Below, piece by piece: positions 6,125-12,737 of a stretch of 21,204 nucleotides of DNA (positions are counted from its first letter, which is position 1; each line of letters starts with the position of its first letter). The notes under the pieces are model-generated. The model was not told where the DNA came from, did no database searches, and saw only the letters and a program-made list of their open reading frames with translations. The stretch lies in IMG/VR virus record IMGVR_UViG_3300009703_001171, positions 1 to 21,204 of that record. One strand, given 5' to 3'. The stretch comes from a virus. A program made the position numbers and the translations under genes.

Positions 6125-6622
6125 CTACCAGCTTACTAAAACGTAGGGCGTAGTTCCAACTGGAGTTATGGCCCCTACAGGACCGTTACCGGAGCCCCCC
6201 GCACTGCCGGGGCTGTACCCGGCTGCGGTTCCGCCTCCTCCTCCGTTTACAGTAATAGTACCAAAAGAACTAGAGCCTCCGGAGCTTCCGCTGTTGCCGG
6301 AGTAAGCGGCGCTATTTCCGCTATTTCCGTTACTTCCTACCGTTACCGTCATATTACCATTCACTGCTTCTAGGGTGGAAGGCAATGCTGCTCCAACGCC
6401 TCCGCTGCCTCCAGACTTGGGGCCCCAGCCGTGAGTATTGCCTCCGCTGCCTCCGTTGCCAGCGGCCATAGCTACACTTACTGCCCCTACTCCTGCAGGC
6501 CTGTTCCAGATTCCTGTACTATTAAAGGCTTGGTGAGATCCTGTAGTGCCCCCACCTGCCGCAGCATTTTGAGTACTGCCGTCCGAGAACGTAATTCCCG
6601 TACTTGTTAATGTTACTGCCAT
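6125..6622 (-). CDS. Glycine-rich adhesin-like tail tip protein
   Basis: A 165-residue protein. The N-terminus (T-G-I-T-F-S-D-G-S-T-Q-N) is a common phage tail-fibre start. Residues 40-95 resemble the glycine-rich beta domain seen in receptor-binding tips: W-N-R-P-A-G-V-G-A-V-S-V, G-N-G-G-S-G-G, then M-T-V-T-V-G. Residues 110-155 are dominated by G, S and N with a G-G-G-G-G run. Such polyglycine segments form the distal loops of T-even gp38-type adhesins and of Gly_rich_2-like domains. Here it follows the S74 fibre by a TAATG overlap and precedes a chaperone, the expected position for a fibre-tip adhesin. It is clearly GC-richer than its neighbours, partly because of glycine codons. The receptor role is inferred. 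Confidence 0.72.
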   Translation of the reverse strand: MAVTLTSTGITFSDGSTQNAAAGGGTTGSHQAFNSTGIWNRPAGVGAVSVAMAAGNGGSGGNTHGWGPKSGGSGGVGAALPSTLEAVNGNMTVTVGSNGNSGNSAAYSGNSGSSGGSSSFGTITVNGGGGGTAAGYSPGSAGGSGNGPVGAITPVGTTPYVLVSW

Positions 6623-8499
6623 TATTTATCTCCTTTTAAGATGTTGATTTCTTCGCGAAGCTCTTTTACTGCTTCAATTAATAAAGCGTGAAGAGCGTCA
6701 TACTCAACTACTTTGAATTTTTCACTACCTTCTTCAAAAGGCATTTCTTTTTCTGTTACAGCACTAGGTAGAACTTTCTCTACGTCTTGCGCGATAACAC
6801 CAGCAGAACGTCTGCCGTCTTTCTTGTACGTAAACTCTACACCGTTTAACTGTGCTACTTTATCAAGTGCTCCAGTTACGTTTGCAACGCCCGTCTTTAA
6901 TTTCTCATCTGATACTGTACCAGAGTAAGCGATAACTTGACCGTCTGCATGTAAGTGCCCCGCGTTAGTGATCCTAACGCGTTCTCCGCCGTCTAACACA
7001 AATCTAAAGTTAGTAGCGTCTAGACCGATGTAGTCATTAATATCTCTGCCAATATGTGTAATACCGTCTCTTAAGTCTGGTTCAACTGAGAAAGTGGTTC
7101 CAGTTAGATCCATACCAGAGCCTGCCGAATACGTAGTATTCGTATTATTGTCTGCTGCCCAAACTGCTGTACCTGCTGAAGTATACTTTAAGAACTGACC
7201 CGCAGAACCGTTAGCAGGTATGTGGTTATTACCATTACCTGTAGGATGAGAATAATTATTAGCGTTAGTAGCAATACCGTCTAGTTTAGTATTATCTGCT
7301 GTAGTAAAGTTAACTTGCGTTAGTCCACCGTCGCCTACTACATAAGTAGTATTAGTATCAATAGAGCTAATAACACCTGTAGGAGAGATAGAAACGTTAG
7401 TACCTGCTGTTAGAGCAGCTACAACATTTGCAGTATCTGTAACATCCGCAGAAGCCTCTATACCGTCTAGTTTAGCGTTATCTGCTGTAGTAAAGTTGAT
7501 TTCTGTTAAACCACCGTTACCTACTGAATAAGTAGTATTGTTATCAGGAACTGTAACTATATCAGTAGTACCATCACCACGATTTAACGTAATAGTATGC
7601 CCACTAATAGTCATCGCATTAGCTGCAGAGCTTAGGGACTGATTAGATGTTTTAGCTGTTTTAGTTGCTAAAGAAGTAGTCAATGTAGAAGCGTAAGATG
7701 CGTCATCATTGATAGCAGCCGCTAGCTCATTAAGAGTATCTAAAGTACCTGGGGCTCCTCCGATTAAATCAGTAAGTTCAGTTTGTACGTATGCAGTTGT
7801 AGCTACCTGTGTAGTATTAGTATTCGCAACAGCTGTAGGAGCGGTAGGAGCACCAGTAAATGCAGGGCTAGCTAAAGGAGCTTTCGCTGCTAAAGCTGTG
7901 TCTAGTCCGTCTACGTTTGCTGTAGTGTGATTATGTGAATCATCAGCAACTGTAGCTATAATAGTAGCATTAGCACTTCCATCAAAAGATACAGAACCAG
8001 AAACGTCGCCTGATAACCCAATAGTTCTAGCAGTTGCTAAAGTAGTTGCTGTAGCAGAGTTACCTGTACAAGATCCTGCAGACCCTGAAGTATTGCCGGT
8101 AACATTACCTGTTACATTACCTGTAACATTGCCAGTTAAAGCACCTGTAAATGTAGTTGCGTGAATTTCAGCCCACTTCTTAGTAGAAGAGCCTAGATCG
8201 TATAGATTAGTTGCATCAGGGATAACATCAGAATTAACTTCACCGCCGAAGCTAACGTTATCTGTATTTGCATCACCTAATGTGATTGTGCCGCCGTTTG
8301 CGGTCATTGTGCCGGTGATAACTGCGTTACCCCCCACATATAAGTTTTCTTGTGTAGAAATACCACCAGCTACCCTTAGGGCACCTGTAGTAGAACTAGT
8401 AGCGCTAGTAGCGCTAGCTACTGAAACGTCAGCAGTACTATCAATAGTTATAGTACTTCCTGAGTGAGAATCAATAGTATTTACTTTTAAAGTTGACAT
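6622..8499 (-). CDS. Tail fibre with C-terminal S74 autocleaving chaperone (large)
   Basis: A 625-residue fibre. The N-terminus (M-S-T-L-K-V-N-T-I-D-S, then G-A-L-R-V-A-G-G-I-S-T-Q) is a module also found alone in the 79-residue gene at 9767. The shaft has low-complexity beta repeats: three tandem G-N-V-T units near 125-137, and a repeated G-G-L-T-x-x-N-F-T-T-A-D-N-x-K-L-D-G-I block. The C-terminus is a peptidase S74 intramolecular chaperone. Ser530 and Lys535 have the Ser-x4-Lys spacing of the endosialidase chaperone dyad, followed by L-N-G-V-E-F, the R-S-A-G-V-I-A-Q-D-V-E motif and a terminal coiled coil. Cleavage before Ser530 would free a 96-residue chaperone after trimer folding. The C-terminal 170 residues are paralogous to the fibre at 12889. 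Confidence 0.9.
   Translation of the reverse strand: MSTLKVNTIDSHSGSTITIDSTADVSVASATSATSSTTGALRVAGGISTQENLYVGGNAVITGTMTANGGTITLGDANTDNVSFGGEVNSDVIPDATNLYDLGSSTKKWAEIHATTFTGALTGNVTGNVTGNVTGNTSGSAGSCTGNSATATTLATARTIGLSGDVSGSVSFDGSANATIIATVADDSHNHTTANVDGLDTALAAKAPLASPAFTGAPTAPTAVANTNTTQVATTAYVQTELTDLIGGAPGTLDTLNELAAAINDDASYASTLTTSLATKTAKTSNQSLSSAANAMTISGHTITLNRGDGTTDIVTVPDNNTTYSVGNGGLTEINFTTADNAKLDGIEASADVTDTANVVAALTAGTNVSISPTGVISSIDTNTTYVVGDGGLTQVNFTTADNTKLDGIATNANNYSHPTGNGNNHIPANGSAGQFLKYTSAGTAVWAADNNTNTTYSAGSGMDLTGTTFSVEPDLRDGITHIGRDINDYIGLDATNFRFVLDGGERVRITNAGHLHADGQVIAYSGTVSDEKLKTGVANVTGALDKVAQLNGVEFTYKKDGRRSAGVIAQDVEKVLPSAVTEKEMPFEEGSEKFKVVEYDALHALLIEAVKELREEINILKGDK
7276..7533. repeat. 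Pair of diverged direct repeats in fibre shaft
   Basis: Segments 7276-7347 and 7462-7533 are highly similar over about 72 bases, offset by 186 bases. Both encode the G-G-L-T-x-x-N-F-T-T-A-D-N-x-K-L-D-G-I shaft block of the S74 fibre. They are in frame, so recombination between them would change shaft length by 62 residues. Confidence 0.8.
8095..8130. repeat. Three tandem 12-base units in fibre gene
   Basis: Three consecutive 12-base units (form RCCKGTWACATT) encode tandem G-N-V-T. They are in frame and could expand or contract by slippage without breaking the fibre. Confidence 0.7.
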
Positions 8500-8512: not shown

Positions 8513-9070
8513 TTATGATATGGTTAAGTAGGCGTTATCGTCCACTTCCACGGTTATACCAGTTGCAATATCAACAGTTCCAGAAGAGGAAGCATTGTTA
8601 TTTGGAGCAACAGTATAATCTGTTGTAATAGTAGGTTGAGTCAATAGAAAAGGAGGGTTGCCTCCAGTTACTTGAGCTCCTCCAACGTATAGGGCAGTAC
8701 AGTTTACAGTTCCATTTACATCTAATTTATAGCTTGTATCTGGTGTAGAAGTACCAATTCCTACTGTTGAAGTATTATAAATAAATCCTGAAGCAACATC
8801 TTCAGTCCAAATATTAGATAAAGTGGTATTTTCCCACTTTGAATTAGAACTGTTATATTGTAGAATTTGATTATTTGATAAACCACTTATATTAACATCA
8901 TCTAAAGAGCTTATATTTCGAGTAGTTAATTCTAATACGTTATTAGAAGTATCTCTCACAAAAAGTTTTTTATCTGCTAAGTTAATAGCGATTTCACCAG
9001 CCTCTAAGTTAGCGGTACTAGGTACGTTACTCGCGGTGGTGGTTCTTTTCGGTTTAAATTTAATGGCCAT
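8513..9070 (-). CDS. Fibre-associated structural protein, paralogue of the 9138 gene
   Basis: A 185-residue protein. The N-terminus (K-P-K-R-T-T-T, then N-L-E-A-G-E-I-A-I-N-L-A-D-K-K-L-F-V-R-D at about 22-41) is a widespread phage fibre/structural N-terminal module and is nearly identical to the one in the gene at 9138. Similarity continues through Y-N-S-S-x-S-x-W-E-N near 68-78. A short S-T-V-G-I-G-T-S-T-P-D-T-S-Y-K-L-D-V-N-G segment follows, a motif that often precedes S74 chaperones, but no chaperone is present. The C-terminus (residues about 140-185) is a different beta segment ending in Y-L-T-I-S. It has a GGGAGA ribosome-binding site and its stop sits just before the ribosome-binding site of the S74 fibre. 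Probably a base or collar protein of the fibre; function not proven. Confidence 0.75.
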   Translation of the reverse strand: MAIKFKPKRTTTASNVPSTANLEAGEIAINLADKKLFVRDTSNNVLELTTRNISSLDDVNISGLSNNQILQYNSSNSKWENTTLSNIWTEDVASGFIYNTSTVGIGTSTPDTSYKLDVNGTVNCTALYVGGAQVTGGNPPFLLTQPTITTDYTVAPNNNASSSGTVDIATGITVEVDDNAYLTIS

Positions 9071-9680
9071 GTGGCTCTCCCTTTTTCTGTGTTTGCTATA
9101 TAGCGGGGGTTATGTTAAAAGTCTATATAAGACTTAATTAGTCGGTAGTTATAAGGTCTGTAACCTTAAATGTAGAGCCGGTACATACTTTAACTACCAC
9201 ATCTACGGCGATTGCCGTATCTGCCCTAGCTTCTGCATCATAGGTGCAGGGTATGTCGTAGCTTTCATCTACTAAAGTAGTTGATTCTAAGAACCAACTA
9301 GGTCCGACTTTCTTGCCCGAGGCAAGTGTAATTTGTTCCGAACTATTAAAAGATCCGTCAATTTCTAGATTATAAGTACCTGAGTGAGTATTTTTACCTA
9401 TAGACACTTTAGAGCCATTTGCGTTATAATATAACTTACTAGCCCCCGTAGTCCATGGGCCCATATCTCTATTATAATTCTCCCACCTACTGGTAGATGA
9501 ATTATAGTGCATAGGCTGGTTATTAGTTTCACCAGATAAGTATATATCCTCCAAGGAGTTTAAGGTCCTTGAAGTTAGTTCTAGGATGTTGTTTGACGTA
9601 TCTCTTACAAATAGTTTTTTATCTGCTAAATTGATCGCGATTTCACCCGCTTCTAAGTTAGAAGTAGTAGGAACAGTTCC
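8921..9680. repeat. Direct repeat encoding duplicated fibre N-terminal module
   Basis: Segments 8921-9030 and 9571-9680 (about 110 bases, 650 bases apart) are closely similar and encode the same E-A-G-E-I-A-I-N-L-A-D-K-K-L-F-V-R-D-T-S-N-N module at the N-termini of two adjacent genes. The remaining parts of the two genes are less alike, so this is a module duplication with diverged C-termini. Confidence 0.8.
9119..9135 (-). terminator. Small hairpin after the 193-residue gene, weak terminator candidate
   Basis: Read on the - strand, AAGTCT-TATAT-AGACTT forms a 6-bp stem that begins two bases after the stop at 9138 and is followed by TT. It lacks a GC core and a long U-run, so it may only pause transcription or protect the transcript end. 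Confidence 0.35.
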
Positions 9681-9719
9681 CGCATTTGCACTGCGTTTTG
9701 GTTTTATGATATGATTCAT
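9138..9719 (-). CDS. Fibre-associated structural protein, paralogue of the 8513 gene
   Basis: A 193-residue protein. The first 80 residues are a paralogue of the next gene downstream: K-P-K-R-S, N-L-E-A-G-E-I-A-I-N-L-A-D-K-K-L-F-V-R-D, then Y-N-S-S-T-S-R-W-E-N. A middle piece (K-V-S-I-G-K-N-T-H-S-G-T-Y-N-L-E-I-D-G-S) corresponds to the V-G-I-G-T-x-x-P segment of the neighbour but is diverged. The last 60 residues differ and contain two cysteines. An AAGGAA ribosome-binding site precedes the ATG. Codon use is richer in AGG, CCC and GGG than in the 8513 paralogue, which suggests separate histories rather than recent tandem duplication. Likely a virion fibre component; no precise function can be assigned. 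Confidence 0.75.
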   Translation of the reverse strand: MNHIIKPKRSANAGTVPTTSNLEAGEIAINLADKKLFVRDTSNNILELTSRTLNSLEDIYLSGETNNQPMHYNSSTSRWENYNRDMGPWTTGASKLYYNANGSKVSIGKNTHSGTYNLEIDGSFNSSEQITLASGKKVGPSWFLESTTLVDESYDIPCTYDAEARADTAIAVDVVVKVCTGSTFKVTDLITTD

Positions 9720-9766: not shown

Positions 9767-10006
9767 TTAGAAAGACCCGCCATCTAAAACGCTGGAGTCT
9801 AATGAAGCCTCTAGCGTTCCAGTTACGGTGGCGTTACCACTAACGTTTAAATTATTTTGAGTGGATATACCCCCCGCTACTCTAAGTGCTCCTGTTGTCG
9901 CACTAGAAGAGGCGGTGGTAGACTCAATATTAAAGTCAGAAGTGCTGTCCACGTCAATTTTAGTTCCGGTGTACGAATCTAAGTTATTTACTTGTAAAGT
10001 TGACAT
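9767..10006 (-). CDS. Stand-alone fibre N-terminal module (79 residues)
   Basis: A 79-residue protein matching the first 70 residues of the S74 fibre at 6622: M-S-T-L-Q-V-N-N-L-D-S at the start, then T-T-G-A-L-R-V-A-G-G-I-S-T-Q-N-N-L and G-N-A-T-V-T-G-T-L. It then stops with L-D-G-G-S-F, the same C-terminal tail as the 642- and 124-residue proteins upstream. It is the first gene after a perfect promoter with an operator-like dyad, and has AGAGGA before the ATG. It may be a fibre remnant left by recombination, or a functional cap or plug that competes for the same attachment site as the full fibre. The intact ribosome-binding site, promoter and shared C-terminal motif favour a real product. 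Confidence 0.72.
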   Translation of the reverse strand: MSTLQVNNLDSYTGTKIDVDSTSDFNIESTTASSSATTGALRVAGGISTQNNLNVSGNATVTGTLEASLDSSVLDGGSF

Positions 10007-10043
10007 ATGGTATCCTCTGTTCTAAACTTTTTTGAAAAATTAT

Positions 10044-10077
10044 TCCAATCTAAATATAATATTATACCTAGATTGGA
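10044..10077. promoter_or_regulatory. Operator-like dyad around the -10 box
   Basis: TCCAATCTA at 10044-10052 and TAGATTGGA at 10069-10077 form a perfect 9-bp inverted repeat with a 16-base centre. The centre contains the -10 box (10061-10066) of the adjacent - strand promoter, and the right arm lies in its spacer. Placement and symmetry fit a dimeric repressor site; the regulator is not in the window. As RNA only the left arm would be transcribed, so a DNA-level role is more likely than a hairpin. Confidence 0.6.
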
Positions 10078-10089
10078 GGTGTTTGTCAA
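10061..10089 (-). promoter_or_regulatory. Perfect sigma70-type promoter for the distal fibre unit
   Basis: On the - strand, TTGACA (10089-10084) and TATAAT (10066-10061) are separated by exactly 17 bases. The -35 box begins nine bases after the stop codon of the 642-residue gene. The start would be near 10054, giving a leader of about 48 bases to the ATG at 10006. It would drive the 79-, 193-, 185-, 625-, 165- and 123-residue genes. Confidence 0.87.
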
Positions 10090-10098
10090 GAAGTATAC

Positions 10099-12027
10099 TT
10101 AGAACGTACCTCCGTCCAACTCGTTAGACCATTCAGGAGCTGTTGCACCAGAATTCATCTTCATAAATTGACCGCCTGTACCTTTACTAAGCTTAGAGAT
10201 TGTTGTAGCGCCTGAAGCATACATGATATCGCCAGAACTAAAGCTAGAAATACCTGTTCCTCCGTAATCTACGCCTACTGTATCACCCTGCCATGTCCCA
10301 GAAGCAATTGTACCTAATGTAGTAATTGCTGATTGTCCAGACCATGTAGTATCAATTTGTACTGAGTTAGCATTAGCTGTAATACCTGTTCCGCCTATAA
10401 CGTCAAGTGTATTACCAGTCTTAGTCATACCAGAGCCAGCAGTAATTTGTCCAGCACCAGAGAATTGGGCGTAGCTTAGAGAAGTTGTACCAACAGTAAT
10501 TGAACCATCGTTTGAACAAACCCAACCAGAGTCAGCATTTGTAGTACCTTCTTCAACAAAACAGAATGAACCCCCAGAAACTTCAGCAGTCTCATCGTAG
10601 TCTGTAGCTCTTGTTGGAGCACCAGAAGCAGCTACTACATAAATACCGTTTTCAGAAGCAGTAGCTTGGTTCTTTAATAAGATACGATCGCCTGTAGCAA
10701 GAGTAATTCCATCAACTGTAGAATTATTAGCAAATGCAGAAGATAATGTACCGCTAGCTGTAGTAGCTACACGTACTGAATCTTTAACATCTAGACCAGT
10801 TTTAACTGCGTCTACATAAGACTTAGTTGCTGCATCTTGAGCCTGTGAAGGATCTGCAACATTAGTAATTCTGTTTGAACCCATTGTAACAGTTTGTGAA
10901 GCAGAAACTGCTAAACCGTCTAATGTGCCAACTGAAGTAACGTTAGTTTGGGCTGCTGTTTGCAATGTACCCGTTACGTTAGTAGCTGTGATATCACCAG
11001 AACCTAAGTTAATGTCTTTATTAGCATCTACAACTAGAGCTTTAGAAGCTACTGCAGTACCTGCTGTTGCTCCGTCTAATACGTTGATCTCACCAGAGTC
11101 AGCAGTAACAAGTACGCCGCCTAGTTTCAAACCATTAGTACCGTCGTGAGAAGCTACATCAAAGTCGTTAGCGCCGTCCGCAATAGTAGCATCACCACCA
11201 ACTGTAAGACCTGTTAAAGTACCTACTGTAGTAATATTACCTTGAGAGGCAGTAGCGATAGAACCCGTAATGTTAGTAGCAGTGATATCACCAGTACCTA
11301 AGTTGATGTCCTTATTTGCGTCTACAACTAGCGCTCTAGAAGCTGTTGCTGTACCCGCCGTAACACCTAGTTCAGCTGCTTGAACTTTATCAGAACCAAT
11401 AGCTGTAACACCTGCAGAACTCATAGTAACGTCTCCAGACATAGCTACTGACTCCCAGTCTACGCCATCCGCAATCATCATATTGCCAGAAGTTGCTGTA
11501 TCAGTACCAACGTTATCTAGCTCTGCTAAAGAGTTAGAACCTAAGTACTTAGCTGCAATTTTCTTATATCCCGAAGCTGAATTGTCATAAATCAATACAT
11601 AGTCGTTATCGCCATCTGGGTTAGCTGCTAAAGCAGTTTGTCCAGTGATGACATCAGTATGTACCATTGCTTTTTGTACAGCATTAGAACCAATTGTCGC
11701 AGTTAATGTTGCGTCAGTTAAGTTTGTTAATGTTGCTGAGCCAGATAAGTCTCCACCTAAAGTGATCGTAGGATCTGCTGTAAGTGCGAAGTCTAAAGTG
11801 TTATCTAAATCATCATAGGTTACCGCAATACCAGTTTCTGTATTGCCAGAGACCATTGCTCCAACTGCATCTGCGATTCCTTCAGAACCGCCAATTACAG
11901 TTACGTTACTACCACTAGTACCAATAAATAGATTATTGGAATTTTCAGAATAGGCTAATTCGCCTTCTGCTAAGCTGGTAGGTGTTGCAGTAGTAGTACT
12001 GCGTTTAATTTTAATTACGTTTGCCAT
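10099..12027 (-). CDS. Large repetitive tail-fibre protein
   Basis: A 642-residue virion protein. The N-terminus (K-I-K-R-S-T-T-T, then S-L-A-E-G-E-L-A-Y-S-E-N-S-N-N-L-F-I-G) is a variant of the fibre attachment module found in the 185- and 193-residue proteins. The centre has two long internal repeats, each reading A-L-V-V-D-A-N-K-D-I-N-L-G followed by G-D-I-T-A-T-N and T-V/S-V-G-T-L. Downstream is an A-A-T-K-S-Y-V-D segment with R-I-L-L-K-N-Q and E-N-G-I-Y-V-V, a combination frequent in tail fibres of large and marine phages. It ends in E-L-D-G-G-T-F with no S74 chaperone. The start follows the previous stop directly. Low-complexity A/T/G/S composition fits a trimeric beta shaft. Which receptor or partner it binds is not visible. 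Confidence 0.82.
   Translation of the reverse strand: MANVIKIKRSTTTATPTSLAEGELAYSENSNNLFIGTSGSNVTVIGGSEGIADAVGAMVSGNTETGIAVTYDDLDNTLDFALTADPTITLGGDLSGSATLTNLTDATLTATIGSNAVQKAMVHTDVITGQTALAANPDGDNDYVLIYDNSASGYKKIAAKYLGSNSLAELDNVGTDTATSGNMMIADGVDWESVAMSGDVTMSSAGVTAIGSDKVQAAELGVTAGTATASRALVVDANKDINLGTGDITATNITGSIATASQGNITTVGTLTGLTVGGDATIADGANDFDVASHDGTNGLKLGGVLVTADSGEINVLDGATAGTAVASKALVVDANKDINLGSGDITATNVTGTLQTAAQTNVTSVGTLDGLAVSASQTVTMGSNRITNVADPSQAQDAATKSYVDAVKTGLDVKDSVRVATTASGTLSSAFANNSTVDGITLATGDRILLKNQATASENGIYVVAASGAPTRATDYDETAEVSGGSFCFVEEGTTNADSGWVCSNDGSITVGTTSLSYAQFSGAGQITAGSGMTKTGNTLDVIGGTGITANANSVQIDTTWSGQSAITTLGTIASGTWQGDTVGVDYGGTGISSFSSGDIMYASGATTISKLSKGTGGQFMKMNSGATAPEWSNELDGGTF
10911..11366. 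repeat. Two long in-frame repeats within the 642-residue fibre gene
   Basis: Segments of roughly 10911-11070 and 11208-11366 are diverged direct repeats about 297 bases apart. Each encodes a block of about 50 residues containing A-L-V-V-D-A-N-K-D-I-N-L-G. The 297-base offset is a whole number of codons, so unequal recombination would add or remove 99 residues. Edges are approximate. Confidence 0.75.
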
Positions 12028-12402
12028 TTAAAAATACCCTCCATTAAGAGTAACATCAGAATACTCTGCAGTATCTGAGCTTTCCGATAATTGAGCTGCT
12101 ATAGTTATTTCTTCCCACGTAGTGTTCCGATAAACCATTAACTTATCATCAGTTGTGTTATACCACAAGTCACCTTCTTCGAGATTACTATCTCCGGTTG
12201 GTGCTGCAGCTTGTACGAATTGTTGATCCGCGATTTGATGCAAAGCATCTTGAATATTCGTAGCAGTAATAGGGCCTACAGGAGTAAATGATATGTCCCC
12301 TGCACCCCCAATTGCTACTGAATTGGTTGTTATTACTACCTCATCCGAGGTTACTGTTATATTATTGCCGGTGGTTTCTGTTACCGATACTACTACACTC
12401 AT
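12028..12402 (-). CDS. Small fibre-associated protein with L-N-G-G-Y-F tail
   Basis: A 124-residue protein of unknown precise function. Residues 75-98 (L-E-E-G-D-L-W-Y-N-T-T-D-D-K-L-M-V-Y, then W-E-E-I) carry the E-G-D-L-W-Y/F-x-T motif common in phage tail-fibre and neck-fibre proteins; the 302-residue fibre has the same motif as G-E-V-W-Y-D-T-T-N-T-L-F-K-V-Y. An I-x-D-A-L-H-Q-I-A segment near 49-58 is also typical of fibre attachment regions. It ends in L-N-G-G-Y-F, matching the C-termini of the next two upstream-driven fibre proteins. The start overlaps the preceding stop (ATGA) and its stop abuts the next ATG, so it is co-translated with both. Confidence 0.75.
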   Translation of the reverse strand: MSVVVSVTETTGNNITVTSDEVVITTNSVAIGGAGDISFTPVGPITATNIQDALHQIADQQFVQAAAPTGDSNLEEGDLWYNTTDDKLMVYRNTTWEEITIAAQLSESSDTAEYSDVTLNGGYF

Positions 12403-12737
12403 GAAGTAACTCCCGCACTAATAGTAGCTCTGCCTTGGATAAGGCGAGTTACTAATCCTGCAGGAGAAGTCATTTCAACGTCATAAATATATTCTACCGC
12501 AGGATCTAACGCCGCTGTCTGTGCAGGGGAGAGAGTCAACTTAAAAGTACCTGTAGTAGCATTAATAATTGTAGAAGTCATAGATACCGGAGTTTCATCG
12601 TAATGAGACTTTGCCAATTTGGAAGCGAAAGTATACCCCGTAATATCTAGGTCATTCCCGGCTGTAGAATCTACGTCCAGCTGTAGCTGCCAAGAAGACC
12701 CCTGCTCAATACTTAAATTATACGTACCTGCTGCCAT
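12399..12737 (-). CDS. Small beta-rich tail/baseplate-associated protein
   Basis: The start chosen is the ATG at 12737 (M-A-A-G-T-Y-N-L-S-I-E-Q-G-S-S-W), 112 residues, with AGGAA seven bases upstream; a longer frame to 12767 adds ten residues without a comparable site. The sequence Y-N-L-S-I-E-Q-G-S-S-W-Q-L-Q-L, then D-I-T-G-Y-T-F-A-S-K-L, G-T-F-K-L-T-L-S-P and Y-I-Y-D-V-E-M-T-S-P-A-G resembles the small N-terminal beta domain of BppU-like and other fibre-holding phage proteins that start with I-x-x-G-x-x-F/W. It is the first gene after the promoter at 12848-12876 and overlaps the next gene by ATGA. It probably anchors fibre components, but this is by resemblance only. Confidence 0.7.
   Translation of the reverse strand: MAAGTYNLSIEQGSSWQLQLDVDSTAGNDLDITGYTFASKLAKSHYDETPVSMTSTIINATTGTFKLTLSPAQTAALDPAVEYIYDVEMTSPAGLVTRLIQGRATISAGVTS

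Follow-up and report, generated by a model that had tools for sequence, protein, structure and literature searches.

A conserved C-terminal hexapeptide and an N-terminal socket domain as putative joint elements in a viral fibre-gene cassette

The fibre-gene cassette

The DNA analysed here is a stretch of 21,204 nucleotides (nt) from a marine phage (IMG/VR record IMGVR_UViG_3300009703_001171, positions 1 to 21,204; hereafter, the window), and the system in question is a fibre-gene cassette in which three successive minus-strand open reading frames (ORFs) end with nearly the same six residues. A first-pass annotation of the window had noticed these endings, LNGGYF, LDGGTF and LDGGSF, in proteins of 124, 642 and 79 residues, and had placed them correctly at the exact C-termini, where they abut the stop codon; in extended form they read TLNGGYF (12028-12402), ELDGGTF (10099-12027) and VLDGGSF (9767-10006). 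Its coordinates for these ORFs hold, but it overlooked a collar gene upstream and two genes downstream that begin with the N-terminal domain referred to below as the socket. Its description of the three proteins as otherwise different is accurate in that they belong to three unrelated BLASTP families, whereas the 79-residue protein does have a relative, a 625-residue S74 fibre encoded in the same window.

All genes of the cassette lie on the minus strand. The collar-like protein (12399-12737) has 112 amino acids (aa) when counted from an internal MAAG start, the ORF itself reaching 12767. Directly after it comes a short adaptor of 124 aa (12028-12402), which carries the tag LNGGYF (codons at 12031-12048) and no socket, followed by a shaft protein of 642 aa (10099-12027) with both an N-terminal, Mtd_N-like socket (MANVIKIKRSTTTATPTSLAEGELAYSENSNNLFIG, 11908-12027) and the C-terminal tag LDGGTF (10102-10119); a search of the Protein Data Bank (PDB) with the shaft matched solely an internal repeat (23sh_r). 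The tagged stub of 79 aa (9767-10006) ends in LDGGSF (9770-9787) and otherwise resembles an incomplete copy of the N-terminal part of the S74 fibre, the two sharing 61% identity over 67 aa (E 6e-21). Two untagged socket proteins of phrog_29752 follow, one of 193 aa (9138-9719, MNHIIKPKRS...GEIAINLADKKLFVRD) and one of 185 aa (8513-9070, MAIKFKPKRT...GEIAINLADKKLFVRD), and further downstream lies the S74-chaperone tail fibre of 625 aa (6622-8499; Peptidase_S74, E 1.1e-15), which has neither tag nor socket. The window holds three tags and three sockets, with LNGGYF standing before a socket of the ELAY type and LDGGTF and LDGGSF before two sockets of the EIAIN type.

The C-terminal tag

The strict tag pattern was set as [LIVMF][DN][GA]G.[FY]-COOH, which from residue composition would be expected in about 3e-5 of proteins, and the proposed plug as [IL][DN]GG[TSNY][FY]-COOH. 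IMG/VR was scanned for DNA encoding IDGGTF, with the scrambled TGDIGF as control; the resulting figures are samples, and the tag-selected loci were drawn from the matches listed. Among the matches listed, IDGGTF stood directly before a stop codon in 92 of 122 (first 120 stretches), and TGDIGF in 0 of 120. The strict pattern ended 139 of 1288 genes in tag-selected loci and none of 1306 in control loci. The first-pass annotation had named as a check on its reading whether the motif is random in other phages or lacks enrichment at C-termini; the position at the stop codon and the scrambled controls point the other way and reject chance as the origin of the tag, which is met in a great many phages.

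Close IMG/VR relatives of the window keep their tags, the strict pattern being matched in 69 of 78 loci. Single-linkage clustering sorts the tagged proteins into 33 families, in which 77 different 30-residue stretches precede the tag, and conservation per position rises from 0.6-1.2 bits ahead of the tag to 2.9-4.3 bits inside it, although part of this sharpness stems from IDGGTF having been the query. The core motif ends no more than two residues from the C-terminus in 245 of 268 cases, and its final residue is nearly always F or Y. Proteins of about 137 aa of a Paenibacillus type add a short extension to the tag core (IDGGSFNEGE, VDGGSFYEGE, IDGGSFTRGV); a socket gene nevertheless comes next, so that a strictly terminal position of the tag is not required there.

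Pairing of the tag with the socket

The protein encoded after a tagged gene tends to begin with MANVIKIKRS...P..L..GELAYS....LFIG. This N-terminal domain, the socket, is Mtd_N-like and is made up of a hydrophobic strand, K/R-K/R-S/R and then GELAx..D.kLYI; its profile has 296 members in tagged and relative loci and none in control loci. Across tagged and relative loci, 178 of 245 tagged genes are followed by one whose product begins with the socket. In loci selected solely for the tag, a socket gene came next after 73 of 115 tagged genes and after 27 of 821 untagged ones (odds ratio 51, p = 2e-55; like the other adjacency p-value given below, this one ignores shared ancestry). Conversely, with tag-selected and relative loci pooled, a tag-like ending was found in 141 of 182 proteins preceding a socket gene and in 54 of 1253 others, compared with 0 of 1111 in control loci. 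Several of the remaining proteins ahead of sockets end in near variants (LTDGGNF, IDCGTY, IDGGTFS), some of which the looser tag pattern used here already counts. Sockets were present in 153 of 164 tagged loci, and two tags with two sockets was the commonest class (12 of 24) among loci with a collar and seven following genes.

Furthermore, the sockets fall into two subtypes according to what precedes them. Those after the short adaptor (joint 1) read ELA[YFW] in 60 cases and ELAxN in 8, while those after a shaft that itself bears socket and tag (joint 2) read ELA[YFW] in 5 and ELAxN in 32 (p = 2e-14 between the two); tag position -2 is N, T, Y or S at joint 1 and T at joint 2. In the window the socket of the shaft is of joint-1 type, and those of the 193- and 185-aa proteins are of joint-2 type.

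The same pairing was met in bacterial genomes and prophages, in a single scan selected by the tag alone that gave 53 tagged ORFs having a following gene: by profile, a socket came next for 35 of 53 tagged and 10 of 497 untagged ORFs (p = 5.5e-33). Inspected by eye, 12 of the other 18 begin with a related domain, several of them canonical Mtd_N-like (RRG...GE.G..TDT...FIG), and the remaining six include a recurrent Clostridium protein, seemingly unrelated to phages, which ends IDGGTF mostly directly before a membrane-protein gene, probably by coincidence. Hosts in the positive records were Clostridia, Paenibacillus, Cohnella, Limnohabitans, Malikia, Rhodobacteraceae, Flavobacteriales and cyanobacteria.

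Named phage genomes (27 records) were searched genome-wide with the tag pattern and the socket profile, and their C-termini were read. Strict tags occurred in 14, all of which have sockets, and 11 of the 13 genomes devoid of strict tags have none (Fisher p = 6e-6, which overstates independence, since the main way to these genomes was the collar or the 642-aa protein, and since many of them are interrelated). Two tags and two sockets were found in P-HM1, Mosig, P-SSM2, Melnitz, DC31, S-CAM9 and DSL-LC02, one of the two tags being a loose variant in Melnitz, DC31 and S-CAM9; one of each was found in Sf-CH5, S-SKS1, S-SRM01, ACG-2014f, S-CAM7, S-T4 and AG-345-L05. Once loose variants are included, the counts of tags and sockets are equal in all 14 tagged genomes, and in ten of these (e.g. 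P-SSM2, Sf-CH5, S-T4 and S-CAM7) a socket gene lies far from the tags, even tens of kilobases away. PSS2 has sockets and no strict tag, and the protein directly ahead of one of its socket genes ends VVGGTF.

A natural counterpart is offered by HTVC008M. The start of the 1020-aa HTVC008M fibre, which runs on untagged, shares 44% identity over 62 aa with the Mosig adaptor (82 aa, tag INAGAF), and a search of the whole HTVC008M genome found neither tag nor socket; judged from these sequences, the joint elements appear to be gone where adaptor and fibre form one chain. Natural fusions with a tag followed by a socket in one chain were not found in the loci examined.

The collar protein

The 112-aa protein ahead of the adaptor is homologous to the T5 collar protein p132. 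It matched phrog_1084 with E 2.4e-28, the T5-like p132 falling in the same PHROG (E 1e-31), and a profile search against PDB chains with hmmsearch retrieved 8hqz_Q (E 3.8e-9) and 7qg9_R (E 8.6e-8). Its AlphaFold2 model (predicted local distance difference test, pLDDT, 88) has an immunoglobulin (Ig)-like fold, and the top four Foldseek matches were DT57C and T5 collar (p132) chains (TMq 0.72-0.76). In T5 the p132 dodecamer holds three side fibres, probably through their N-terminal ~50 residues (PMC10038345), and the position of the window gene directly before the fibre genes suggests that its product is probably the anchor ring of the fibre.

The collar family was present in 82 of 164 tagged loci and in 1 of 120 control loci. 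Wherever collar and tag occurred together, the collar gene lay on the same strand, one (62 loci) or two (20 loci) genes upstream of the tagged gene. In several cyanomyophages it lies just ahead of gp13 neck genes, an order from which we infer that the ring may sit at the neck there. A collar with neither tag nor socket was found in two Streptomyces phages, two Schitoviridae, S-SM2, S-CAM1, S-SSM6a, HTVC008M and a T5-like phage; since collars thus occur also without tags, the tag tracks the socket and not the collar.

Collar homologues turned up in other surroundings as well. In the Streptomyces phages Enygma and Beuffert their genes stand between those for the major capsid protein and the head-to-tail adaptor, and the other structural genes that come next (that of Enygma with a collagen-like GPxG stretch) have no tags or sockets. 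In Dinoroseobacter DFL12phi1 and Roseobacter RD-1410W1-01 the collar homologue is followed by proteins like the neck-fibre bead gp81 of phage A-1(L) (LSGRLDSTMMPTGIG). Two collar-like proteins of P-SSM2 are encoded close to a halogenase gene and apart from the tag cassette of that phage, and a divergent collar-like domain is present at the C-terminus of the PDB chain 26dk_M.

Discussion

The first-pass annotation had offered a docking tag, a trimer cap or a sorting signal for fibre assembly as explanations of the shared ending. The first of these holds as an association, with tag and socket paired both next door and genome-wide, and its physical part is what we propose here; for a sorting signal no support was found. 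With a probability that we would put at about 0.72, the C-terminal hexapeptide acts as a plug for the N-terminal socket on the fibre protein that comes next, so that fibres are built serially. The partner of the tag would likely be the Mtd_N-like domain that begins that protein. On the tail or neck, a ring of the p132-like collar protein would hold the short adaptor via the N-terminus of the latter, the adaptor tag would enter the socket of the long shaft protein, and a distal, untagged protein would in turn receive the shaft tag in its own socket. Each joint would presumably link trimer to trimer, and the fibre would grow serially outwards from the collar. The gene order in the window, i.e. 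collar, 124-aa adaptor, 642-aa shaft, 79-aa tagged stub and the distal socket proteins of 193 and 185 aa, is consistent with such a series.

Several observations weigh against this reading. Approximately one third of the tagged genes in virus loci have no detected socket directly after them, for which truncated loci, intervening small genes and unlinked or missed sockets are the reasons; C48C1 has one weak socket and no tag. Most of the tagged isolates are Kyanoviridae or other marine T4-like phages, and, as said above, the adjacency statistics disregard common ancestry and many of the named genomes are related. The adaptor modelled poorly as a monomer with AlphaFold (pLDDT 55, with values under 50 at either end). 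The relationship of the socket to Mtd_N (PF18454), known from the tropism determinant of Bordetella phage BPP-1, is likewise weak: the profile matches 11 of 27 sockets when E values up to 0.1 are admitted (the best being 6e-4), the 48-aa N-terminal piece of the window shaft reaches 18.5 bits (E 0.0019) against the Pfam gathering cut-off of 26.3, and alignment of socket and Mtd with hhalign gave a probability of 3% and E 0.014. Residues 5-36 of this piece do align to positions 1-33 of the 37 in the profile, with the same N-terminal position in a fibre protein and a collinear strand pattern, and the socket would be at best a divergent relative of Mtd_N, not assigned as a member; PDB relatives of it were not found at E below 0.03. 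BPP-1 was considered as a prototype and rejected, the fibre gene upstream of its mtd being untagged.

Among the alternatives, the trimer cap deserves most attention, though we regard it as unlikely. The hexapeptide would close its own trimeric fibre, with three aromatic side chains as a plug, and the Mtd_N-like neighbours would reflect cassette inheritance; the residues preceding the tag do resemble common trimeric fibre repeats, and the almost invariable final F or Y would suit such a role. A cap, however, need not be terminal, yet nearly all core motifs end at or close to the C-terminus, and it leaves unexplained the matched numbers of tags and sockets, the unlinked sockets in ten genomes, the loss of the joint in HTVC008M and the matching of tag and socket subtypes. 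Docking of the tag onto the p132-like collar, with the socket a bystander, appears very improbable. It would account for the collar lying one or two genes upstream in all 82 loci that have both, but the collar-bearing phages that lack tags lack sockets too, and the collar is missing from 82 of 164 tagged loci while the socket is present in nearly all of them; untagged collars and collarless tagged loci thus disfavour the collar as receptor.

Slightly less credible still is that tag and socket were once a single domain that was broken by a stop/start pair. Many pairs are indeed adjacent with gaps of a few bases, but unlinked pairs, tags on many unrelated families and the fused HTVC008M fibre with neither element speak against such a remnant, and even if it were one the two parts would still have to associate in trans. 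Finally, the peptide could be a by-product of GGNGG codons serving as a Shine-Dalgarno site for the next gene, a possibility that we consider close to negligible. GGAGG codons do occur in 47 of 94 tags with a gene start within 15 nt, and in the window GGAGGG at 12037-12042, inside the codons of the first tag, resembles a Shine-Dalgarno site ahead of the ATG at 12027, where the next gene starts. However, for 91 of 185 GG-type tags no gene begins within 15 nt, and these use GGAGG at background level (16 of 91, compared with 1103 of 6068 GG dipeptides) and keep the peptide. Since the peptide is kept in both classes and the codon bias is confined to the near one, the tag is a protein feature; moreover, a Shine-Dalgarno site would not fix I/L, D/N, T/S and F/Y. 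The codon test refutes Shine-Dalgarno pairing as the sole cause of the tag; in suitable places the tag codons double as a ribosome site, as at 12037-12042.

Returning to the plug and socket, parts of the scheme have precedents. In the long tail fibre of T4 (gp34-gp35-gp36-gp37), separate chains are joined C-terminus to N-terminus, as in the fibre proposed for the window, and to our knowledge no short C-terminal peptide is shared by its joints. The neck fibre of Anabaena phage A-1(L), gp82-gp81-gp80, is a serial, head-to-tail arrangement of small proteins on a neck ring, in which N-terminal hairpins of each bead contact the preceding one and the ring protein is described as having a different fold (PMC10966104); it resembles the proposed window fibre in being a serial multi-protein fibre attached to a ring, and was rejected as a prototype, its genome having neither hexapeptide tag nor socket. 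The window collar shares PHROG and predicted Ig fold with p132 of T5 and DT57C (PDB 7qg9, 8hqz), but the fibre differs from their L-shaped tail fibre in being divided into several tag and socket proteins, whereas the T5-like genome searched has no tags or sockets. Fibres of serial chains (A-1(L), PMC10966104, as well as the T4 case above) and the p132 collar are hence already known, and the main new finding is what follows the tag, i.e. the pairing with the socket. A literature search limited to open-licence papers found no phage paper printing the motif, nor a shared C-terminal hexapeptide with a matching socket.

It appears somewhat more probable than its opposite that siphoviruses, T4-like phages and the prophages of several bacterial phyla share one interchangeable standard of fibre joint, made of hexapeptide plug and socket, in which two joints with matching subtypes set the order of the parts. 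If so, distal fibre parts, even unlinked ones, could be swapped without redesigning the attachment, which would explain their exchange between phages or their location far from other fibre genes. The joining of multi-part phage fibres is known for few phages, and with a code in the protein ends one could tell from the sequence the fibre proteins that connect, their order and the distant gene needed to complete a fibre; this would be of use for uncultured marine phages, whose fibre genes are mostly unannotated. The proposed joint, a short peptide and a domain of 45 residues, is also open to direct testing.

It should be noted that the distal, untagged socket proteins often have an ending of their own, approximately [FILM][IAL][LIA]ALG (TPFILALGGD, NPLIIALG, TMAIALG), and that in cyanophage loci a gene for a protein of about 113 aa comes after the untagged socket protein. 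This ending is possibly a second kind of C-terminal joint.

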